Virus record (IMG/VR): IMGVR_UViG_3300046501_000082
Location: 1-64,000 of that record
DNA: 64,000 nucleotides
Origin: a virus
Reading direction: 5' to 3' (one strand)
This document shows, in pieces, positions 5,951 to 48,773 of this stretch. The notes beneath the pieces are model-generated. The model was not told where the DNA came from. It was given only the letters and a program-made list of their open reading frames with translations, and searched no databases. Made by a program: the position numbers and the translations under genes. The stretch's first letter is position 1. Each line of letters opens with the position of its first letter.

Positions 5951-5983
5951 TTTAGATCAAATTAAATTAAAGGAGATCTAAAA
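5950..5983 (+). promoter_or_regulatory. RBS-occluding hairpin at the LAGLIDADG gene start
   Basis: TTTTAGATC at 5950 is a perfect 9-base inverted match to GATCTAAAA at 5975, whose last A is the first base of the ATG. The AAAGGAG site lies in the loop and at the stem base. Folding would hide the ribosome-binding site, as known for several T4 homing genes in read-through transcripts. Confidence 0.6.
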
Positions 5984-6951
5984 TGCAAGAATTAATAAAA
6001 CCCCACTACTTTGAACAGGTATTGGAGATGTTTGACCAAGGTCTTTTACAGCAAGAAATTGCTGATATTATTGGTATTAAAAAACAAGCTCTAGCTTTTC
6101 AAATGAAGAAGTTTGGATTCTCTTTCAAACGAGCTTCCTATCGTATGCTTGATTCTCAAATCGATGAAGCTGTTAGGATGTATTCAGAAGGAATGTCCGC
6201 ACCAGAAATCGGCACTGCTCTCGGAGTCTCTAAGTCCAATGTAAACTACGCACTTAATTTGCGTGGTGTTGCTATGAAGACAAAGAAAGAGATTAAGTTC
6301 TACAAAAAGTATTCTATAAATGAAGATGCTTTTTTGGATTTAACTACAGAACAGTCTGCTTATTTCTATGGTTGGATTTTAACTGATGGCTGGGTAAGTA
6401 AGGCAAACGTCTCTATTGAGTTATCAAGAAAAGATGAGGAGCTTCTGTTAAACTTCAAATCTTATATGGGAAGTTCAAATAAGATTTACCAAAGAAGTAA
6501 AGTAGTGAAGGTTACTGGCAATGTATCCGAGATGAGTTCTTTTGGTTTTTCCCATGAACCAATCTTGAATAGACTGAAAGAGTTGGGGCTTAAAGAAAGA
6601 AAATCTTTAAAAGAAGTTTGTCCAGATGTATTCAAATACAATCGACATTTTTGGCGAGGTGTGGTTGAGGGTGACGGACATATTGCCAAATCGGATAGCT
6701 ATTCAGTAGAAATTTGTGGTAGTGAAGAGCTATGCAGTGCTTTTGAAAATTATTGTAAATCCCTTTGCCCTGAAGCCCATGTATACAGAGCAATGAACGG
6801 TAAGATGTTTGTTGCTAAAATTGGTCGGAAAAGTTCAACCAATATAATCCTTAACGAATTGTATAGAGATTGCACTTTAAAGCTCTCTAGAAAATATAAT
6901 GTTTATTTAGAGAGGTATTGTGATGGCATTGACTTTGATAGAGCAAGTTAG
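5983..6951 (+). CDS. LAGLIDADG homing endonuclease with N-terminal helix-turn-helix repeats
   Basis: The 322-residue protein has two LAGLIDADG helices, SAYFYGWILTDGW (about 126-137, acidic Asp135) and HFWRGVVEGDGHI (about 222-234, Asp231), so a single chain forms the pseudo-dimer that makes a staggered cut. Residues 1-95 hold two HTH-like segments (QEIADIIGIKKQALAFQM and APEIGTALGVSKSNVNYAL). It is free-standing between the head fibre and a head-tail connector gene. Its 3' end overlaps the start of the next gene by about 30 bases and supplies that gene's RBS. An RBS-occluding hairpin precedes it. Confidence 0.88.
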   Translation: MQELIKPHYFEQVLEMFDQGLLQQEIADIIGIKKQALAFQMKKFGFSFKRASYRMLDSQIDEAVRMYSEGMSAPEIGTALGVSKSNVNYALNLRGVAMKTKKEIKFYKKYSINEDAFLDLTTEQSAYFYGWILTDGWVSKANVSIELSRKDEELLLNFKSYMGSSNKIYQRSKVVKVTGNVSEMSSFGFSHEPILNRLKELGLKERKSLKEVCPDVFKYNRHFWRGVVEGDGHIAKSDSYSVEICGSEELCSAFENYCKSLCPEAHVYRAMNGKMFVAKIGRKSSTNIILNELYRDCTLKLSRKYNVYLERYCDGIDFDRAS

Positions 6952-30431: not shown

Positions 30432-30464
30432 AAAAAGGCTCTACATCCCGAAGGACATAGAGCC
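30432..30464 (-). terminator. UUCG-loop terminator after the YadA-like gene
   Basis: On the minus strand GGCTCTATGTCC, a TTCG tetraloop and GGATGTAGAGCC form a long stem followed by TTTTT. It ends the YadA-like transcript. Confidence 0.85.
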
Positions 30465-30494
30465 AATATATCACATCAGATTATTGTGTCAAGC

Positions 30495-31925
30495 TTATTT
30501 TAGACGATAGGTGCCACTAACAACAGCCCCAGTCTGAGAGCCAGCAGATGTGAATGCAGCATTCAGGAACAGAGATTCACTGACAGCACCACCAAAACCG
30601 ACTGCTACAGCATGATAGCCACCCATCGTTGCACCAGACAAAGCAACCTGTGGACCAGCTTGGTAGTCTGTAGAGAACTGATGACCTGCAACTGCAAGAG
30701 CACCTACAGCAATATTACCAACTTTATTCAAATCACGTTTCAGACTTGTAATCTCAGATTGCTGACTATCCAGACGACCACTCAAGCGAGTATCCATGTC
30801 ACGGCTGTAGTCTTCAATGTTGGTGATACGTGTCTCATGGTTAGAGAGTTGTTTGGTGTTACTGCTAAGTTGAACACTCTGTTGCTGCTGTACTTCACCA
30901 AGAGTCACAATGTTATTTGTGTTTGACTGGATCTGTGTAGTGTGCTGACTAAGTGTATTACCTTGTGCCGTTACAACTTCATTAGTAGATTTAATATCAG
31001 AGCTATTCTTACTAATGTCAGTAGTATTTTTAGCAATAGAAACTGTGTTAGCAGCTCCAATACTCAATGCAACGTTAGCCGTACTCTGTGCGTTTTCAGC
31101 CTTAGTATTTACACTAGAAAGCTGTCCTTGCACCTGTGTATTTGTGTTAGTCTGGTTACTATTTACAAAACTTTGATTATTGTTGATGGTGGTCTGTGCA
31201 GAGTTGATAGAAGTCTGCACACTAATAGCAGTATTCACTTTATCATCAACAGCTTTAACATTGTTGTTAGTCTTAGTGAATTCAGCAGCACCTTGTGAGG
31301 CAACACTATCAATCTTATCATTCAAGCCTGTGGCAATAGCAACGCCAGCAGCCTTAGTTGCTTGAAGGTCAGCGTTAACACTTGAGACAGCACCGTTAGT
31401 TTCACGGATAGCGTTCTCTGCGCCATCAAGACGTACAGCATTGTTAATAGAACGATCATCTGTTACAGCCAATGATTTCTCAATACCGTCTGCACGAACT
31501 GCGTTAGCATCTACTTTAGTCTCTACAGTGTCTAGACGGACTTCTGTTTTATCAACCCGTAGATTTGTGTTAGCATTGTCAGTCTTCAATTCTGTGTAAG
31601 CTGCTGCACCTTGAGCGGCGTAAGAGTCTACTTTGTTGTTCAAGTTGGATACGTTTGTATTGGTTTGATTGAGATTACTTTGAACCTTATCAGCAGCTTT
31701 CAAAGCACTCTCACCTACTCGGATACCGAGATTAGCAGAGTTCTGTGCATCAAATGCTTTAGTACGGGCATCATTAGCAACATAAGCTGTGTCTGCAAGG
31801 TTGTTGTTAGCCTCCTTTAGTTGAGACTGTGTGACATGGTTGAACGGGTTTGTCAAATCAATGCCAGTGGCAAAGGCTTGTGTGGAAGCAATCGTGATAG
31901 CTACAGCGAGGATCGTTTGTTTCAT
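30495..31925 (-). CDS. YadA-like trimeric autotransporter-type surface protein
   Basis: The 476-residue protein has a Sec signal peptide (MKQTILAVAITIASTQAFA, likely cleaved before TGIDL), then a passenger made almost entirely of coiled-coil stalk repeats (VDKTEVRLDTVETKVDANAV, TTDISKNSSDIKSTNEVVTA). The C terminus is a YadA-anchor-like segment (about 395-476) with KVGNIAVGALAVAGHQF and GGYHAVAVGFGGAVSESLFL strands. Proteins of this type insert a 12-strand trimeric barrel into the outer membrane and display the stalk. No head lectin domain is obvious and the last residues (GTYRLK) lack the usual terminal aromatic. It has its own promoter and terminator. A role in superinfection exclusion or altering the infected cell surface is inference. 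Confidence 0.8.
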   Translation of the reverse strand: MKQTILAVAITIASTQAFATGIDLTNPFNHVTQSQLKEANNNLADTAYVANDARTKAFDAQNSANLGIRVGESALKAADKVQSNLNQTNTNVSNLNNKVDSYAAQGAAAYTELKTDNANTNLRVDKTEVRLDTVETKVDANAVRADGIEKSLAVTDDRSINNAVRLDGAENAIRETNGAVSSVNADLQATKAAGVAIATGLNDKIDSVASQGAAEFTKTNNNVKAVDDKVNTAISVQTSINSAQTTINNNQSFVNSNQTNTNTQVQGQLSSVNTKAENAQSTANVALSIGAANTVSIAKNTTDISKNSSDIKSTNEVVTAQGNTLSQHTTQIQSNTNNIVTLGEVQQQQSVQLSSNTKQLSNHETRITNIEDYSRDMDTRLSGRLDSQQSEITSLKRDLNKVGNIAVGALAVAGHQFSTDYQAGPQVALSGATMGGYHAVAVGFGGAVSESLFLNAAFTSAGSQTGAVVSGTYRLK

Positions 31926-31971
31926 TTGTTTCTCCTAGGTTAATTTTACAAGCTTTGTGCTTGTGGAGTGG

Positions 31972-32000
31972 ATTATGGGCAAAATAAAAGGCCCTGTCAA
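31972..32000 (-). promoter_or_regulatory. Sigma70-type promoter for the YadA-like gene
   Basis: On the minus strand TTGACA (plus 31995-32000) and CATAAT (31972-31977) are 17 bases apart. The -35 box is perfect and forms the loop of the nrdB terminator hairpin. AGGAG precedes the YadA-like ATG about 8 bases upstream. Confidence 0.75.
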
Positions 32001-32006
32001 GGGCCA
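31984..32006 (-). terminator. Terminator after nrdB, overlapping the YadA-gene promoter
   Basis: On the minus strand GGCCC, TTGACA loop and GGGCC are followed by TTTTATTTT, a compact intrinsic terminator 14 bases after the nrdB stop. The loop doubles as the -35 box of the next promoter. Confidence 0.7.
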
Positions 32007-32020
32007 GTTTGAAAGTATTT

Positions 32021-32989
32021 CTATGCTGTCTTATACATTTCATAAGCTGGTGTAAAGCTACCGTCTAAGTTTGCTTTCGCATACTCAACAATACTACGCT
32101 CAAAAAATGATCCAAACGTCTTGCCCATCATTGCATCAATCCAAGGAAGAGGGTTTTCTCTAACGTTCCAGTTCTTCTTAAAGCCTAGCTGTTGAAGACG
32201 GTAATCAGCTACGTATCGAACATACTTTTTAACATCTTCTTTAACTAGGTTACTAACGCCACCCATTTTAAAGATTCGATCAACAAAGGCATCTTCTAAT
32301 TTAACAAGTTCTCGTGCTGAAGAGTAGATGTCCTTCTTAAACTCATCATTTACAATCCGAGGATGCTCATCTAAAAAGATGCGAAACAATGCAGTGTTAC
32401 CTTCTACGTGAATTGACTCATCAACCATGCTCCACCGAACAATGTCACACATTCCGGGAAGCTTCCCAAGACGGTCAAAGTTCAGCAGAATAGCGAAAGA
32501 TGCAAACAAACTTACACCTTCCATCATTGTCTGTTTAGCTAAATACTTTGCAAAGTCTGTATGGCTTTTACCAATACTCTCAATCATGTACTCATGCTTT
32601 TCTTTCATTTCTACATAATCAAGAAACTCATGATAAAAGCTTTCGCCAAAACCCATTGTATCCGAGAACAAAGCATATGCACGAATATGAGTACCTTCCC
32701 TAGCAGCAAAGCTCCCTAACATAGAACGTGCTTCGTTGTTCTTGATGTAAGGAATAATCTTGTCGTAGTAGCCCCCGCCAACATTGACATCTGACTGAGT
32801 GAACAAACGAAAGATATTAGATGTCAGGTTCTTTTCTTCAGGTAGAATCTTACCATTTTTCCACTGCTCTACATCATTGTTCAGCTTGGCTTCATGCTCA
32901 TACCAATGCACTTTCTCATGCTTAATATTAATATCCACCAAGCTGTGGTACTTTGGCGAATAAATTTCGCTGTATTCTGTGAGGCTCAT
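32021..32989 (-). CDS. nrdB: Ribonucleotide reductase class I, beta subunit
   Basis: The 322-residue protein makes the tyrosyl-radical di-iron cofactor for NrdA. Visible ligands are the Asp in FTQSDVNVGGG, the E-x-x-H pair in REGTHIRAY followed at +4 by the radical-site Tyr, the Glu in TMMEGVSLFAS, and the E-x-x-H in VDESIHVEGN. All expected iron ligands and the Tyr are present. It is shorter than E. coli NrdB but typical for phages. It is co-directional with and 20 bases downstream of nrdA. Confidence 0.92.
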   Translation of the reverse strand: MSLTEYSEIYSPKYHSLVDINIKHEKVHWYEHEAKLNNDVEQWKNGKILPEEKNLTSNIFRLFTQSDVNVGGGYYDKIIPYIKNNEARSMLGSFAAREGTHIRAYALFSDTMGFGESFYHEFLDYVEMKEKHEYMIESIGKSHTDFAKYLAKQTMMEGVSLFASFAILLNFDRLGKLPGMCDIVRWSMVDESIHVEGNTALFRIFLDEHPRIVNDEFKKDIYSSARELVKLEDAFVDRIFKMGGVSNLVKEDVKKYVRYVADYRLQQLGFKKNWNVRENPLPWIDAMMGKTFGSFFERSIVEYAKANLDGSFTPAYEMYKTA

Positions 32990-33008
32990 TTGTGCTCCTT
33001 AATTAATT

Positions 33009-34892
33009 TCAACCGCTGCAAGCTGCGCATTCCTCACCAACTTCTGGTGTCCAGTCTGTAATAGCCTTACGTTCAATTTCCTTAGCAACGTCCGCATTGA
33101 TACCCCGTTCCATGCGAGCATAGTACATACTCTTGGAGTAAGGGGCAAGCAAAAACTTCAAGTGTACGGAGTTAAAATAACTACGATCACAGCCCGCAGG
33201 GTAGAATGTATTCAAGCTTTGGCTTTGGCAGACATACTGTGCCCGTGCATCTGACTGCTCAATAATCCAATGTTGGTCAATCTCCGCGCCTGTCTTAAAC
33301 ACAAGCTTATCTTTTTCTTCCATAAACTCTAGGTTTTGAACGCTGCCATTATCTTTAGCAATAAACTTTTCTTGATCGTCAACCCAACTTACAACTTTAT
33401 CTTCTGCAATCCCCAGCTTACTGGCATACTCTGTCAGCTTAGCTGTCAAGTGGGGATTCTTGACTGTGAATGTTCCTGCACGGGTTGAGTGGCTATACAC
33501 ATTCCCGCTCACAGGCTCAATACTAGGACTCTCACCAAGAATTACCGCGTTGTTGCTGTTAGGTGCAATAGCCATCAATGCTGAGTTACGAAGACCTGAC
33601 CCAATCATGTCAGAAGGTTCGCCACGTTCTTCTGCAAGCTTCTTGCTTTCAGCTAAAGCCTTTTCTTTAATCAGTTTGTAAATCTTATGTGTCTCTTGAA
33701 TCGCGCTACCAAAACCACCACCCTCCATTGGGATACCCTTGGATTGTAGGTAGTAGTGCCAAGAAAGTGTGCCAATTCCGATGGCTCGCTCCATCTTAGC
33801 TGAATAGGTTGCTTTACTAAGTTCTTCTGGTGCATTATCAATAAAGTATTGAAGTACATTATCCAGAAACCGGGTCAAGTCTTCTACAAGATTAGTATCT
33901 TTCCAAGCATCGAATTTAGCTAAGTTAAGGCTGCTGAGGCAGCAAACAAAGGTTCGGTCTTCATTTGTAGGAAGAGTCACTTCAATACAGATGTTGCTTC
34001 CCTTAATTTCCAAACCTTTATCTTTCTGTGTTTGTGGCAGGGCACGGTTTGCAGTATCAATTTTAAAGATGTATGGTTCACCTTGCAAAGCACGGGCTTC
34101 AAGAATCTCTTCCCATATAGCACGAGCCTTAACAACTTCTTTGATATCCCCTGTATGTGGGCAGACCAACTCAAAGTCTTCATCATTAACAACAGCTTGT
34201 GTAAATTTATCTGTCACATTTACAGCATGGTGAAACTGAACTCGGTTATCAGCCTTACGGGCAGAATCACCACCACTCGGAATACGGAACTTAATGTGTT
34301 CCATAATATCTGGGTGACTTACATCCATGTAATACGCACAAGCACCACGCCGTGTTTTACCTTGCTTGTAATAGCCAATGATCGCATCCATTGTTTTCAT
34401 ATATGGAATTGGACCCGGAGCTTTATCCGTAGTCGCACGGATGCTATTATGAAGGCCAACACCACCACCGGCAACAGACAAAGCAGCCAGTTCAACGTTA
34501 GCTTTCATTTGCCCTTTGATGCTGTCAGGAACCTCTAGGGCAAAACAACTAATTGGCATTGCTGCTGAGTGTTCACCTCCCCAGTAACCTTCTGAGACAG
34601 ACTTATGTCGCTCGTTATTTTCAAAGTCTTTCCACTCACGATCAGGAACTTTCTGCAACCATTTACCGACTGGTGCGTTACTAAGGACTGGACTGGCAAA
34701 CATGAACCAACCCTTGTGTGCAGCCTCATAAATACGTTGAGCTAGATCGTAGTCCCCATAACAGAAAGCTTCGGATGCTCGTGCAAGTGCATCGTTAAAT
34801 GTCTCACCTTTTTGAAGATAAAAACCATCAAGTAGTGCATTAGAAAAATCATTAATATATTCTGGTTGGTGTTCAAATTTTTTAATGCTCAA
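33009..34892 (-). CDS. nrdA: Ribonucleotide reductase class I, alpha subunit
   Basis: The 627-residue catalytic subunit reduces ribonucleoside diphosphates to supply dNTPs. The active-site Cys pair partners are in AMPISCFALEV and RTFVCCLSSLN, the N-x-C-x-E triad is SNICIEVTL, the radical-relay Tyr pair is in SKSMYYARMERG, and the C-terminal redox pair is ECAACSG. It begins close to the catalytic barrel and lacks an N-terminal ATP-cone, so the usual dATP off-switch is missing, common in phage enzymes. Confidence 0.92.
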   Translation of the reverse strand: MSIKKFEHQPEYINDFSNALLDGFYLQKGETFNDALARASEAFCYGDYDLAQRIYEAAHKGWFMFASPVLSNAPVGKWLQKVPDREWKDFENNERHKSVSEGYWGGEHSAAMPISCFALEVPDSIKGQMKANVELAALSVAGGGVGLHNSIRATTDKAPGPIPYMKTMDAIIGYYKQGKTRRGACAYYMDVSHPDIMEHIKFRIPSGGDSARKADNRVQFHHAVNVTDKFTQAVVNDEDFELVCPHTGDIKEVVKARAIWEEILEARALQGEPYIFKIDTANRALPQTQKDKGLEIKGSNICIEVTLPTNEDRTFVCCLSSLNLAKFDAWKDTNLVEDLTRFLDNVLQYFIDNAPEELSKATYSAKMERAIGIGTLSWHYYLQSKGIPMEGGGFGSAIQETHKIYKLIKEKALAESKKLAEERGEPSDMIGSGLRNSALMAIAPNSNNAVILGESPSIEPVSGNVYSHSTRAGTFTVKNPHLTAKLTEYASKLGIAEDKVVSWVDDQEKFIAKDNGSVQNLEFMEEKDKLVFKTGAEIDQHWIIEQSDARAQYVCQSQSLNTFYPAGCDRSYFNSVHLKFLLAPYSKSMYYARMERGINADVAKEIERKAITDWTPEVGEECAACSG

Positions 34893-45709: not shown

Positions 45710-45946
45710 CATTCAGTTATTGAGTTCGCTAAACTCACTCCGCTTTCACGGAGAATCAGACTATATCACAAACTCTTTCGAGTTTCCTGCCGCTTCGAGT
45801 GCGCTTGCACCCTACTCCCTTCCGGGATAGTCGTTACACGTTCCTATTTCTAGGCTTCGCTCGGGATTGGCATGGCTTTCGCTTTAGCTTTCCCCGAATT
45901 CAACAGGTTATTCAATGCACTTCACAATGCAAGGCCACAATTATTT
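45710..45946 (-). ncRNA. Group I self-splicing intron (T4 td-like, about 237 nt) in the DNA polymerase gene
   Basis: Read on the minus strand, exon 1 ends in T of the His codon and the intron ends in G, as group I rules require. P1 can form between exon CCAU and intron GUGG with a terminal U-G pair. The core shows CGGGGAAAGC and CCAATCCCGAGC (P4-P5 region), then TAACGACTATCCC and GATATAGTCTGATTC, the P7/P3 signature shared with T4 td. A hairpin-rich 3' part ends ATAACTGAATG. Joining CAT to GATGAAGCG restores His-Asp-Glu. No ORF lies inside; reading on without splicing hits TAA five bases in. Confidence 0.93.
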
Positions 45947-48124
45947 ATGGTACGCAATCATTTGTTGGCAATACTTTTTACTTTTCCAATCGTCTTTAAA
46001 GAAATCTACCGCGAACCCTTCGGCTTTAAGCTTACGATCATGAATAACCATCGCTCGCTTTGCACAAATTACACCTGCGCTTTGAAATCCACTGTTAATC
46101 ACATTGCCTTTTGAACGAATAGGAAGTTTACGTTTATCAATACCTACAAGAAACTTCTTCTGTCCTGTTGTTTCCCAGTATTGCTGCATACGTTCTTTGA
46201 GTTCTTTGAGCGGATTAGCCAAAGTCCAGAACTCATCAAAAATAATCTGTGCCGTTTCTAGGTCACAACCAACAATTTTAGCTACCCGTGCAACTTGGGC
46301 GTTGTAACTACATCCGTACTTCACAGATTTAGCGCTATTTCGTGGGAAATCACGGCCAATAATCTCTGTAATACGGCGGGCCAATACAGAGTGACAATCA
46401 TTAGGCTTTTCAGCAGTCAGACTTACACCGTACTCCGGGCCACCTTTATAACGGTACACATAATGACTTTCAATCTTAGCCTCAAGGCTGTCAAAATCAT
46501 AACCAAGTTGTACATAGCCTTCACCAACACCAAACAAACTCCTCATTTCCTCCCCGTAAAGGGATGTATTTCGTGGAATGTTCGCCACTAAACGATGCTT
46601 GAATCTGCTGGTCCCAGCGCCGCAAGTATCTGCTGGTGTTGGAATACGTCCATCCTCACGAACGTTCGGCATAAAACCACTTTCATGCTCTTCGTCATTT
46701 TCCTCTGGATCATACCCGCCCCCCAGAATACTATTACGGCGGTGGCTGTAAGTCAAGAAGTCAGCAAGCTTTCTAGCGTGTGGAAAGCTACTTTCTAGTG
46801 CAATAAGACCGGGGCAGATCTCTTTCTCTTGTCCTACCGTCAGCGTGGGGTTGGTTAACACTTTAAAGCTTTTAGCGCACCCTTTTGCCAACAACTTAGC
46901 CTTAATGTTGTTTTTATTAAGGTTCAAGTGCTCTAGACGATATTTGCAGAAAGGACTTGCTAGTGTCTGTTCAACATATCGTTCTACTGCTGCTTCGAAC
47001 TTCTCCTGTGTCAGACGGTTCTTCTTGGCATCACAGGTAAGATCACGCTCCTTCCAAGCGGAAGGGTTCCAGTGAAACTTAGACACTAGCCATTCTTTAA
47101 TGTGGGTTGTGTCTTTCAAAGTTGATGGTACTTCAGTGAGCAATGGTACAGCAGGCATTGGTAGTGGATACTCTTTACCAAAGATTGTTGCTACGTTATC
47201 TTCACTAATTGTTCCTTCGTGTTTAGCTACAAACTTCTTAATGTTTTCATTAAGTTCGCCAGACTTCTTAAACTGTTTTTCCGAAGGTGTGTAGAAATCC
47301 ATGCGCGTCTTAGCCAATGGTTTTGGTGGCAAGACAGGTTCAACTTCACTGCGCAAGGCCTCAAGTTTGATGTCAAGATCACGAACCAGTTCAATTGCAC
47401 GTTCTGTCTTAAAGTCAAATCCTCGGTGCTCTTGGCGAGTGATAATCTCCGCAACAGACTTTTCCAGACTGATAGCGTCTAACCAATCCCAATCACCTTT
47501 CTCAGCCTCCAGCATCTTGTAAACTTTTGTGTTCGCCAAGACATCTATGATGCAATAAAATAACATGTCCGCTGCAAAATGTTTGAAACGAATAGATTCG
47601 TGAATGTGTTTACGAAAAGAATACTTGCGCAAGCCAGCTTTCTCAGACAAAGAGTCCAAGCTATGTCCGCCCAACCTATCCGGGTTAAGCGCTTTGCTTA
47701 TTACAAGTGTATCTTCAAATAGAACAGGTTTACCGCACCAAGTATCTTGTTCAACGGTGAAGTCCATATCTTCTTCAATCTTACCAACCATCAAGTCAAA
47801 ATTGATCTGGTTGTGAGCCACCACTTTATGCAGTGGGTTGTTTAGGACGTAAGCCTTAAACTCAGCAATAGATCGCTTTTCAAACTCAAGAGGTTGATAG
47901 TTTTCAAGAAGATATGTTTGCCCCTCAATTACCTCTTCGTAACGGCGACCATCAAGAATATATTCAGGACCGTCATAAAAGGCAATAATCTTACCAGTTT
48001 GATGTTCTTCCACAACAGTACAATGAGTCTTAAAAGTCTCTTTCAGCTTGAATGGGCTGCTTGTGTAATCGATAGCCTCTTGATTCAAAAGACCTGTTGT
48101 TTCCCGGTCCCAAGTAATATCCAA
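45947..48124 (-). CDS. DNA polymerase (T7 gp5-like family A), exon 1, TTG start
   Basis: Exon 1 gives 726 residues; with exon 2 the enzyme has 812. Proofreading acids are in WDRETTGLL (Asp6, Glu8), AHNQINFD and YCIIDVLAN. Motif A is DFDSLEAKIESHY (Asp543) and motif B is RNSAKSVKYGCSYN (Arg595, Lys599). Motif C begins with His726, where exon 1 stops. TTG 48124 was chosen: AAAGGAG lies seven bases upstream and the protein then starts MDITWDRE; the longer ORF runs back into the HNH gene. It is the replicative polymerase of the phage. Confidence 0.9.
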
Positions 48125-48128
48125 TTTC

Positions 48129-48773
48129 TTACTCCTTTGTTCTTCCAAAATACTTAATCTCGCCAGCAGCTCTGGCATCACAGGCTTCTTCGAAGGTGTC
48201 AAAATAGCCTAAGTTAATATCTTTTCTTTCAACCCCAATACGGGCACGCCACTTCTGTTGTTTTTCAACCCATGCCACACCTGTTCTGCCAGACTTGTTG
48301 TTTTTAAAGATACCTTTATTAAAGCTTTGAACTCTCCAAGTATCCCATACGCAGTTTTCTCTAGAGTAACCAAGTTTAGGATCTTCTCGTTCTAAAGTCA
48401 AACCCTCTTTATACGAGTCACCCATATCCCTCAAGAAGTTTTCAAACTGACGCCAGTCCTCTTGATCCAAACCAGCGCCCTTTCCTCCGTACTTATCCCA
48501 ATTGGGGTCGTTTGGATTGGTGCAGCGTGAAACCATTGAACCCCATACAGCATAAATCTTAGATTTCCACATGCCATGTGTTCTATAAGAGCGTTCTGCT
48601 CTAAGGCAACCACACGATTGAGAATTTCCGTCTTTAATTTGATCCGCCCTAACTACTTTTTCTTTACCACAGTCGCACAAACAATTCCAGTAGGGCCTAC
48701 CATTTTTAGATTCAGCAAAACTTATGATCGTCCATCTGTTATATTTATTACCTGTCAAGTCTTCGTGAGCCAT
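48129..48773 (-). CDS. HNH homing endonuclease with AP2-like domain, next to the intron-bearing gene
   Basis: The 214-residue protein has the zinc-ribbon start NCLCDCGKEKVVRADQI and QSCGCLRAER, the HNH core YGGKGAGLDQEDWRQFE then LTLEREDPKLGYSRENC, and an AP2-like end (SGRTGVAWVEKQQKWRARI). It sits directly upstream of the polymerase gene and carries the polymerase RBS in its final codons. It may mobilise the nearby endonuclease-free intron. Confidence 0.87.
   Translation of the reverse strand: MAHEDLTGNKYNRWTIISFAESKNGRPYWNCLCDCGKEKVVRADQIKDGNSQSCGCLRAERSYRTHGMWKSKIYAVWGSMVSRCTNPNDPNWDKYGGKGAGLDQEDWRQFENFLRDMGDSYKEGLTLEREDPKLGYSRENCVWDTWRVQSFNKGIFKNNKSGRTGVAWVEKQQKWRARIGVERKDINLGYFDTFEEACDARAAGEIKYFGRTKE

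Follow-up and report, generated by a model that had tools for sequence, protein, structure and literature searches.

A headless YadA-like trimeric autotransporter predicted behind the ribonucleotide reductase genes of a phage

Trimeric autotransporters are commonly regarded as bacterial adhesins and virulence factors, and adherence or autoagglutination, common among the bacterial members, is established for YadA and AtaA. Phages can carry related proteins: the Eib immunoglobulin-binding proteins of E. coli are phage-borne YadA-type outer-membrane proteins, encoded on temperate prophages and displayed on lysogens. T5 Llp and Cor are phage-made outer-membrane proteins that alter adsorption; both are small lipoproteins, each aimed at one receptor, and neither is a trimeric rod. 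Moreno Switt et al. 2013 (PMC3728262) noted, ahead of any functional test, that yadA homologues occur in phiEco32, virulent Salmonella phages and other phages, where they lie apart from the tail genes and adjoin a dUTPase gene. In the open-access literature searched, no work on the function of phage proteins of this kind came up.

We analyzed a 64,000-nucleotide stretch of a virus record of 92,874 bases, hereafter the window. The portal of this record is closest to those of Pseudomonas phages such as vB_PsaM_M1 (53%), and the cultured hosts of the protein subfamily described below are Stutzerimonas stutzeri and P. oryzihabitans, so that a Pseudomonas-like host is likely. No match to the phage integrase family PF00589 was found in the record or in eight related records. 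This supports the lytic lifestyle assigned by the initial annotation and stops short of proving it; the related records may be fragments. The window also carries a Group I intron (Rfam RF00028, 79 bits; 45737-45957, minus strand) at the 3' end of a DNA polymerase ORF (45941-48202), so that the polymerase gene is probably split. A LAGLIDADG-type homing endonuclease is encoded amid the head genes (5983-6951, plus strand); introns of staphylococcal phages hold distant relatives of it.

The gene studied here occupies positions 30495-31925 on the minus strand, and its translation is a 476-aa protein resembling a headless trimeric autotransporter. As in type Vc proteins generally, the N terminus is a predicted Sec signal peptide: residues 1-19 (31869-31925; MKQTILAVAITIASTQAFA, followed by TG) gave the top score, 5.05, among the 87 window ORFs of at least 100 aa, with the runner-up at 3.78, under one crude rule that is not SignalP. 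The stalk that follows, approximately residues 20-395 (30741-31868), comprises about 375 residues, in which N, A, T, S, V and Q are frequent, proline occurs once and cysteine is missing. Its hydrophobic residues are enriched at heptad a/d spacing (z = 5.8 against shuffles), and AlphaFold2 modeled the full-length monomer as a near-continuous helix over residues 33-415 (mean pLDDT 70), interrupted at 122-131, 147-158 and 279-285. Heptad spacing and helical model point to the extended stalk of type Vc proteins, here a predicted coiled coil, with a length of about 55 nm if it is one unbroken rod. The IxxN stalk motif was no more frequent than in shuffled sequences (p 0.34), and a looser heptad pattern gave p 0.02. 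Because some relatives show only weak heptad enrichment (z 0.3-1.8 in 15G, Bue1, GAP32 and the contig L008), the coiled coil is firm by this measure for the window protein, L006 and SKML-39 only. No head domain was recognised by Pfam, and the model, all helix ahead of the anchor, has no globular N-terminal domain. Lacking the globular beta-rich head of YadA/Hia-type adhesins, the window protein is therefore not placed in that head-bearing subset.

The C-terminal membrane anchor (residues 396-476; 30498-30740) was analyzed in isolation. Its sole Pfam match was PF03895 YadA_anchor, at an E value of 0.011-0.021 and under the gathering score; the same family was matched by all ten subfamily members scanned, with a best E of 9.5e-6. 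AlphaFold2 predicted one helix followed by strands at 426-434, 437-447, 452-461 and 464-473, the helix and four strands per chain of a YadA-type anchor. When this model was compared with the PDB by Foldseek, the first five matches were, in order, Hia, Hia, AtaA, Hia and YadA. VIA-align gave these five anchors Z scores of 10.8, 10.6, 9.9, 9.8 and 8.6 over 76-103 residues, the next row being an unrelated structure at Z 6.6; sequence identity to the solved anchors is about 12-20%. A profile that included phage 15G matched YadA 2LME (1.8e-5), Hia 2GR8 and a third cell-surface protein, and removal of 15G left YadA alone, at 0.016. Searches of Pfam and the PDB with the full-length protein returned nothing but chance stalk matches. 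At the level of prediction, these data rule out a C terminus unable to form four strands per protomer. Because this model is of a single chain and only moderately confident (pLDDT 72), the 12-strand trimeric barrel is something we infer from it.

Outer-membrane barrels usually end in a C-terminal aromatic residue. The anchor end is basic after the last strand in the window protein (30498-30509) and in L006-L009, L017 and L018 (YRLK, YRFK, YRLR, FGR), and the remaining relatives retain the aromatic. The Lys that follows the expected aromatic-type end in the window protein counts against the reading proposed below, though its close relatives have this feature too. Collectively, the signal peptide, long coiled-coil stalk, missing head and YadA-anchor-like C terminus that the initial annotation had read from the sequence were each borne out by these analyses, and the YadA-like architecture as a whole is backed by sequence, synteny and predicted structure. 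We conclude that the window protein is very probably an outer-membrane trimeric stalk protein.

Relatives were found in several ways. With tblastn we detected the Pseudomonas/Stutzerimonas phages ZQG1, ZRG1 and POR1 and, via the stalk, 15G, 15b and the Erwinia phages Bue1 and phiEa2809. Scans of viral contigs with an anchor alignment added L006-L011, L017 and L018; L012 looked like a chance match and was set aside. Megablast against phages gave no match, and a viral-contig scan with the full protein found nothing because the stalk dominates the patterns. In a tree, a branch supported at 100/100 separated the 12 window-type anchors from 11 of the canonical YadA type, also from phages. The window anchor belongs to this subfamily of 12 members, a phage-only one by the genome scans given below. 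YadA homologues of lytic phages are already on record, and the window anchor clade is divergent from them. The canonical subfamily extends over about 70 phage records (73 matched), including phiEco32, SKML-39, GAP32 and Salmonella FSL SP-076. An hhalign comparison of the two phage groups gave a weak probability (41%, E 2.8e-4), so the case for their homology is made by fold and Pfam.

Each of the 23 proteins that we read closely combines a signal peptide, a stalk and an anchor, and the nine loci retrieved by a stalk module, of which L032 repeats Bue1, follow the identical plan. In the agglutinating adhesin of phiEco32 (L019:3515-4312), the annotated start hides the signal peptide, and a downstream ATG gives MKAIVLSSILALSVMASPVFA. 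Stalks are between about 90 and 630 residues long, and their type varies from coiled coil to collagen-like, the latter in phiEco32, SP-076 and RF1. In five pairs of relatives dN/dS was 0.10-0.33, values that indicate purifying selection on these genes.

Two modules of the stalk are shared with other phages. Module A (residues 99-114; 31584-31631; VDSYAAQGAAAYTELK) recurs in the Erwinia phages Bue1, phiEa2809 and Yoloswag. Module B (residues 139-181; 31383-31511; containing VTDDRSINNAVRLDGAENAIRETN), a stretch of 43 residues with 79% identity to phage 15G by tblastn, occurs in phages with either anchor type and coincides with a low-confidence helix break in the full-length model. The unit VTDxRSINNAVRLDGAE..IRETN is repeated across phages with both anchor types and stands in tandem in 15G, Bue1 and phiEa2809 at a spacing of exactly 28 residues, or four heptads. 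Pattern-based scans placed this unit in 11 viral contigs, and 84,980 prokaryote genomes yielded no copy. Since these units are common to phages with either anchor, stalk and anchor seem to have recombined among Pseudomonas and Enterobacterales phages.

Every solved anchor of this fold is bacterial, and the initial annotation had allowed that the gene might be a recent capture from the host; the corresponding rival is a host adhesin gene that does nothing for the phage. The claim of recent capture found no support. The window-type anchor had no relative in a pattern-based scan of the 84,980 genomes and was absent from the 72,556 plasmid records scanned; both genome scans, for the anchor and for the stalk unit, require exact short peptides, and divergent copies could therefore be missed. 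The place after nrdB is kept in diverged phages, the dN/dS values of the relatives are those given above, and the anchors form the fully supported phage-only clade. The GC3 of the stalk gene (0.32) resembles that of the other phage genes (0.30-0.40). With the stalk module likewise not found in the prokaryote genomes scanned, we rejected recent host capture, which we now consider hardly credible.

The gene lies directly behind nrdB (32021-32989) and nrdA (33009-34892) on the minus strand, a context conserved among relatives (32021-34892), whereas the structural genes occupy the plus strand from about 0 to 26.5 kb. The earlier statement that it adjoins the RNR genes on the metabolic-gene strand, outside the structural genes, is thus correct. 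In L007 and L008 the stalk gene also follows nrdA-nrdB directly, in L018 it comes after an NrdA-like gene, and in L017 an HNH-type gene stands between it and the RNR genes. The RNR genes of L017 (L017:3587-6274) are swapped in order and only 24-30% identical to those of the window, still near upstream of the stalk gene; we read this as displacement of genes at a site that is itself conserved. Downstream of the stalk gene, the next gene in L008 (L008:8446-8781) and L007 (L007:3494-3829) encodes a protein of 111 aa, which bears a signal peptide of its own, is conserved between the two and matched neither a PHROG nor a Pfam family. In the related phage vB_PsaM_M1, no large gene occupies the corresponding place behind the RNR genes, so that the stalk gene is, by this comparison, accessory. 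A Serratia phage can still grow after loss of a region that includes a YadA-anchor gene (PMC5449768), which fits an accessory function.

Promoter-like and terminator-like sites flank the gene on both sides; the two promoter-like sites and the upstream hairpin are no more than consensus matches. A phage moron, or autonomous accessory gene, would have a promoter and a terminator of its own. Upstream, a terminator-like hairpin after nrdB (31990-32005) overlaps a promoter-like site, TTGACA-17-CATAAT (31972-32000), which matches 11 of 12 consensus positions and is joint best of 21 in 9.5 kb; a ribosome-binding-like AGGAGA (31931-31936) precedes the ATG by 5 nt. Downstream, a second promoter-like site, TTGACA-16-TATATT (30465-30492), lies between the stop codon and a strong terminator-like hairpin (30437-30464; 12 bp stem, TTTTT); all are on the minus strand. 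The upstream promoter-like sites are no family trait among relatives. The terminator association does hold: a terminator-like hairpin lies within 80 nt downstream of 17 of 23 stalk genes and of 27 of 319 other ORFs at the same loci, where the 23 genes are not all independent and the 319 control ORFs were taken mechanically.

These positions bear on whether the protein is a virion component, for example a tail fibre or decoration protein. Across the family the adjacent genes encode RNR, exonuclease, dCMP deaminase, dUTPase, DNA polymerase or hypothetical proteins, none of them a virion protein; the immediate annotated neighbors in cultured relatives are hypothetical or belong to nucleic-acid metabolism. 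Genes for the tail or baseplate nevertheless start within about 1-4 kb of the stalk gene in RF1 and Bue1; the window gene itself lies outside any tail or structural module. A virion role would agree with the annotation of the fHe-Yen8-01 homologue as 'phage particle associated', with the detection of YadA-domain proteins in cyanophage virions (PMC9146016) and with PHROGs, in which the window anchor group has no entry of its own and the canonical relatives (phrog_17426, phrog_26246) are filed as tail adhesin or tail protein. However, in both PHROGs the members that we read have a Sec signal peptide and a YadA anchor, and the 'tail' label is probably wrong for them. Phage preparations can contain outer-membrane vesicles. 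Because every relative read has a signal peptide, and with a membrane-anchor fold and neighbors that are not tail genes, a virion role is improbable.

Across the family, the export signal and the anchor are constant while the rod varies in length and chemistry, which suggests that the physical presence of a rod at the cell surface counts more than any single binding site. The initial annotation had named blocking of superinfecting phages, clumping of cells and altered receptor access as possible roles. We propose that the protein would be made during infection, exported via the host Sec system and trimerised, and that the host BAM machinery would insert the 12-strand barrel, four strands from each chain, leaving a rod of about 55 nm pointing outward from the outer membrane. 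A lawn of such rods may hinder further adsorption, so that superinfecting phages would be excluded, and may keep released progeny off the debris of lysed cells. Since this phage has its own stalk gene and unrelated viruses have the same kind of gene, recoating of the infected cell is probable. The whole statement, that a headless type Vc autotransporter recoats the infected cell and thereby limits further adsorption, we regard as a reasonable possibility that falls somewhat short of probable. The stalks of some relatives, at only about 90 residues, are short for a coat and count against it.

The main rival to exclusion is adhesion or autoagglutination, a common activity of bacterial trimeric autotransporters: modules A and B or the tip would bind cells, surfaces or the protein itself, infected and uninfected cells would clump, and progeny would reach new hosts at once. 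The conserved modules A and B could serve as binding sites, which also counts against a mere coat, and relatives are annotated 'autoagglutinating adhesin' by similarity. A further candidate site is an N-terminal motif, TRLNTYTHGNSVAIQ, at residues ~45-75 of nine relatives (L001, L002, L003, L007, L008, L010, L011, L017 and L018). It lies at the predicted tip, where it is possibly a small functional element, and is missing in the window protein, L006 and L009. Without this motif and without a head domain, and with stalk length and chemistry unconserved, the window protein is rather unlikely to act by clumping, and we favor exclusion on plausibility. A different effect, in which lysis is helped or the envelope stress response altered because the barrel takes up BAM or makes the outer membrane weaker, would suit a predicted BAM client made during infection, with the lysis cassette a few kb away on the opposite strand of the window. 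Such envelope disturbance would not need a long, maintained stalk, and the place among metabolic genes speaks against a lysis role; we consider it very improbable.

Extending exclusion to the wider family, we suggest, tentatively and with more doubt than for the window protein, that virulent phages of many unrelated lineages have retained a module encoding Sec-exported headless trimeric autotransporters with swappable stalks, one group of them on a phage-only anchor. These proteins would coat the infected cell in the lytic cycle and control superinfection or progeny loss, and the 'tail protein' and 'adhesin' entries would form one overlooked functional class. Databases often give canonical relatives these two labels, which may need correction, as 'tail protein' relatives bear export signals and membrane anchors. 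The correction matters for the screening of therapeutic phages because such genes are flagged as virulence adhesins or virion parts. That virulent phages maintain a phage-only form of such a protein suggests that lytic phages remodel the outside of cells they are about to kill; if true, this would tie type V secretion to phage competition. The stalk gene makes the idea directly testable.

The window protein shares with the type Vc proteins YadA, Hia and AtaA a signal peptide, a stalk and a C-terminal helix with four strands, and these are its top structure matches; it differs from them in being headless and phage-encoded and in the weak sequence similarity of its anchor (PF03895 below cut-off, identity as above). 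Eib is borne by temperate prophages, whereas no PF00589 integrase was found in the present phages. The comparison with Llp and Cor is functional only, and we claim no homology. Closest are the YadA homologues ('agglutinating adhesin') of phiEco32, Salmonella FSL SP-076, Cronobacter GAP32 and Erwinia Bue1, which have the same architecture at a similar genome position, and some virulent-phage homologues have stalk modules in common with the window protein. They carry the canonical YadA anchor, whereas the window anchor belongs to the separate phage-only clade outside PHROGs. To these described systems our analysis adds that divergent clade, signal peptides in every relative read, the terminator association, the nrdAB-linked place and phage-only stalk modules.
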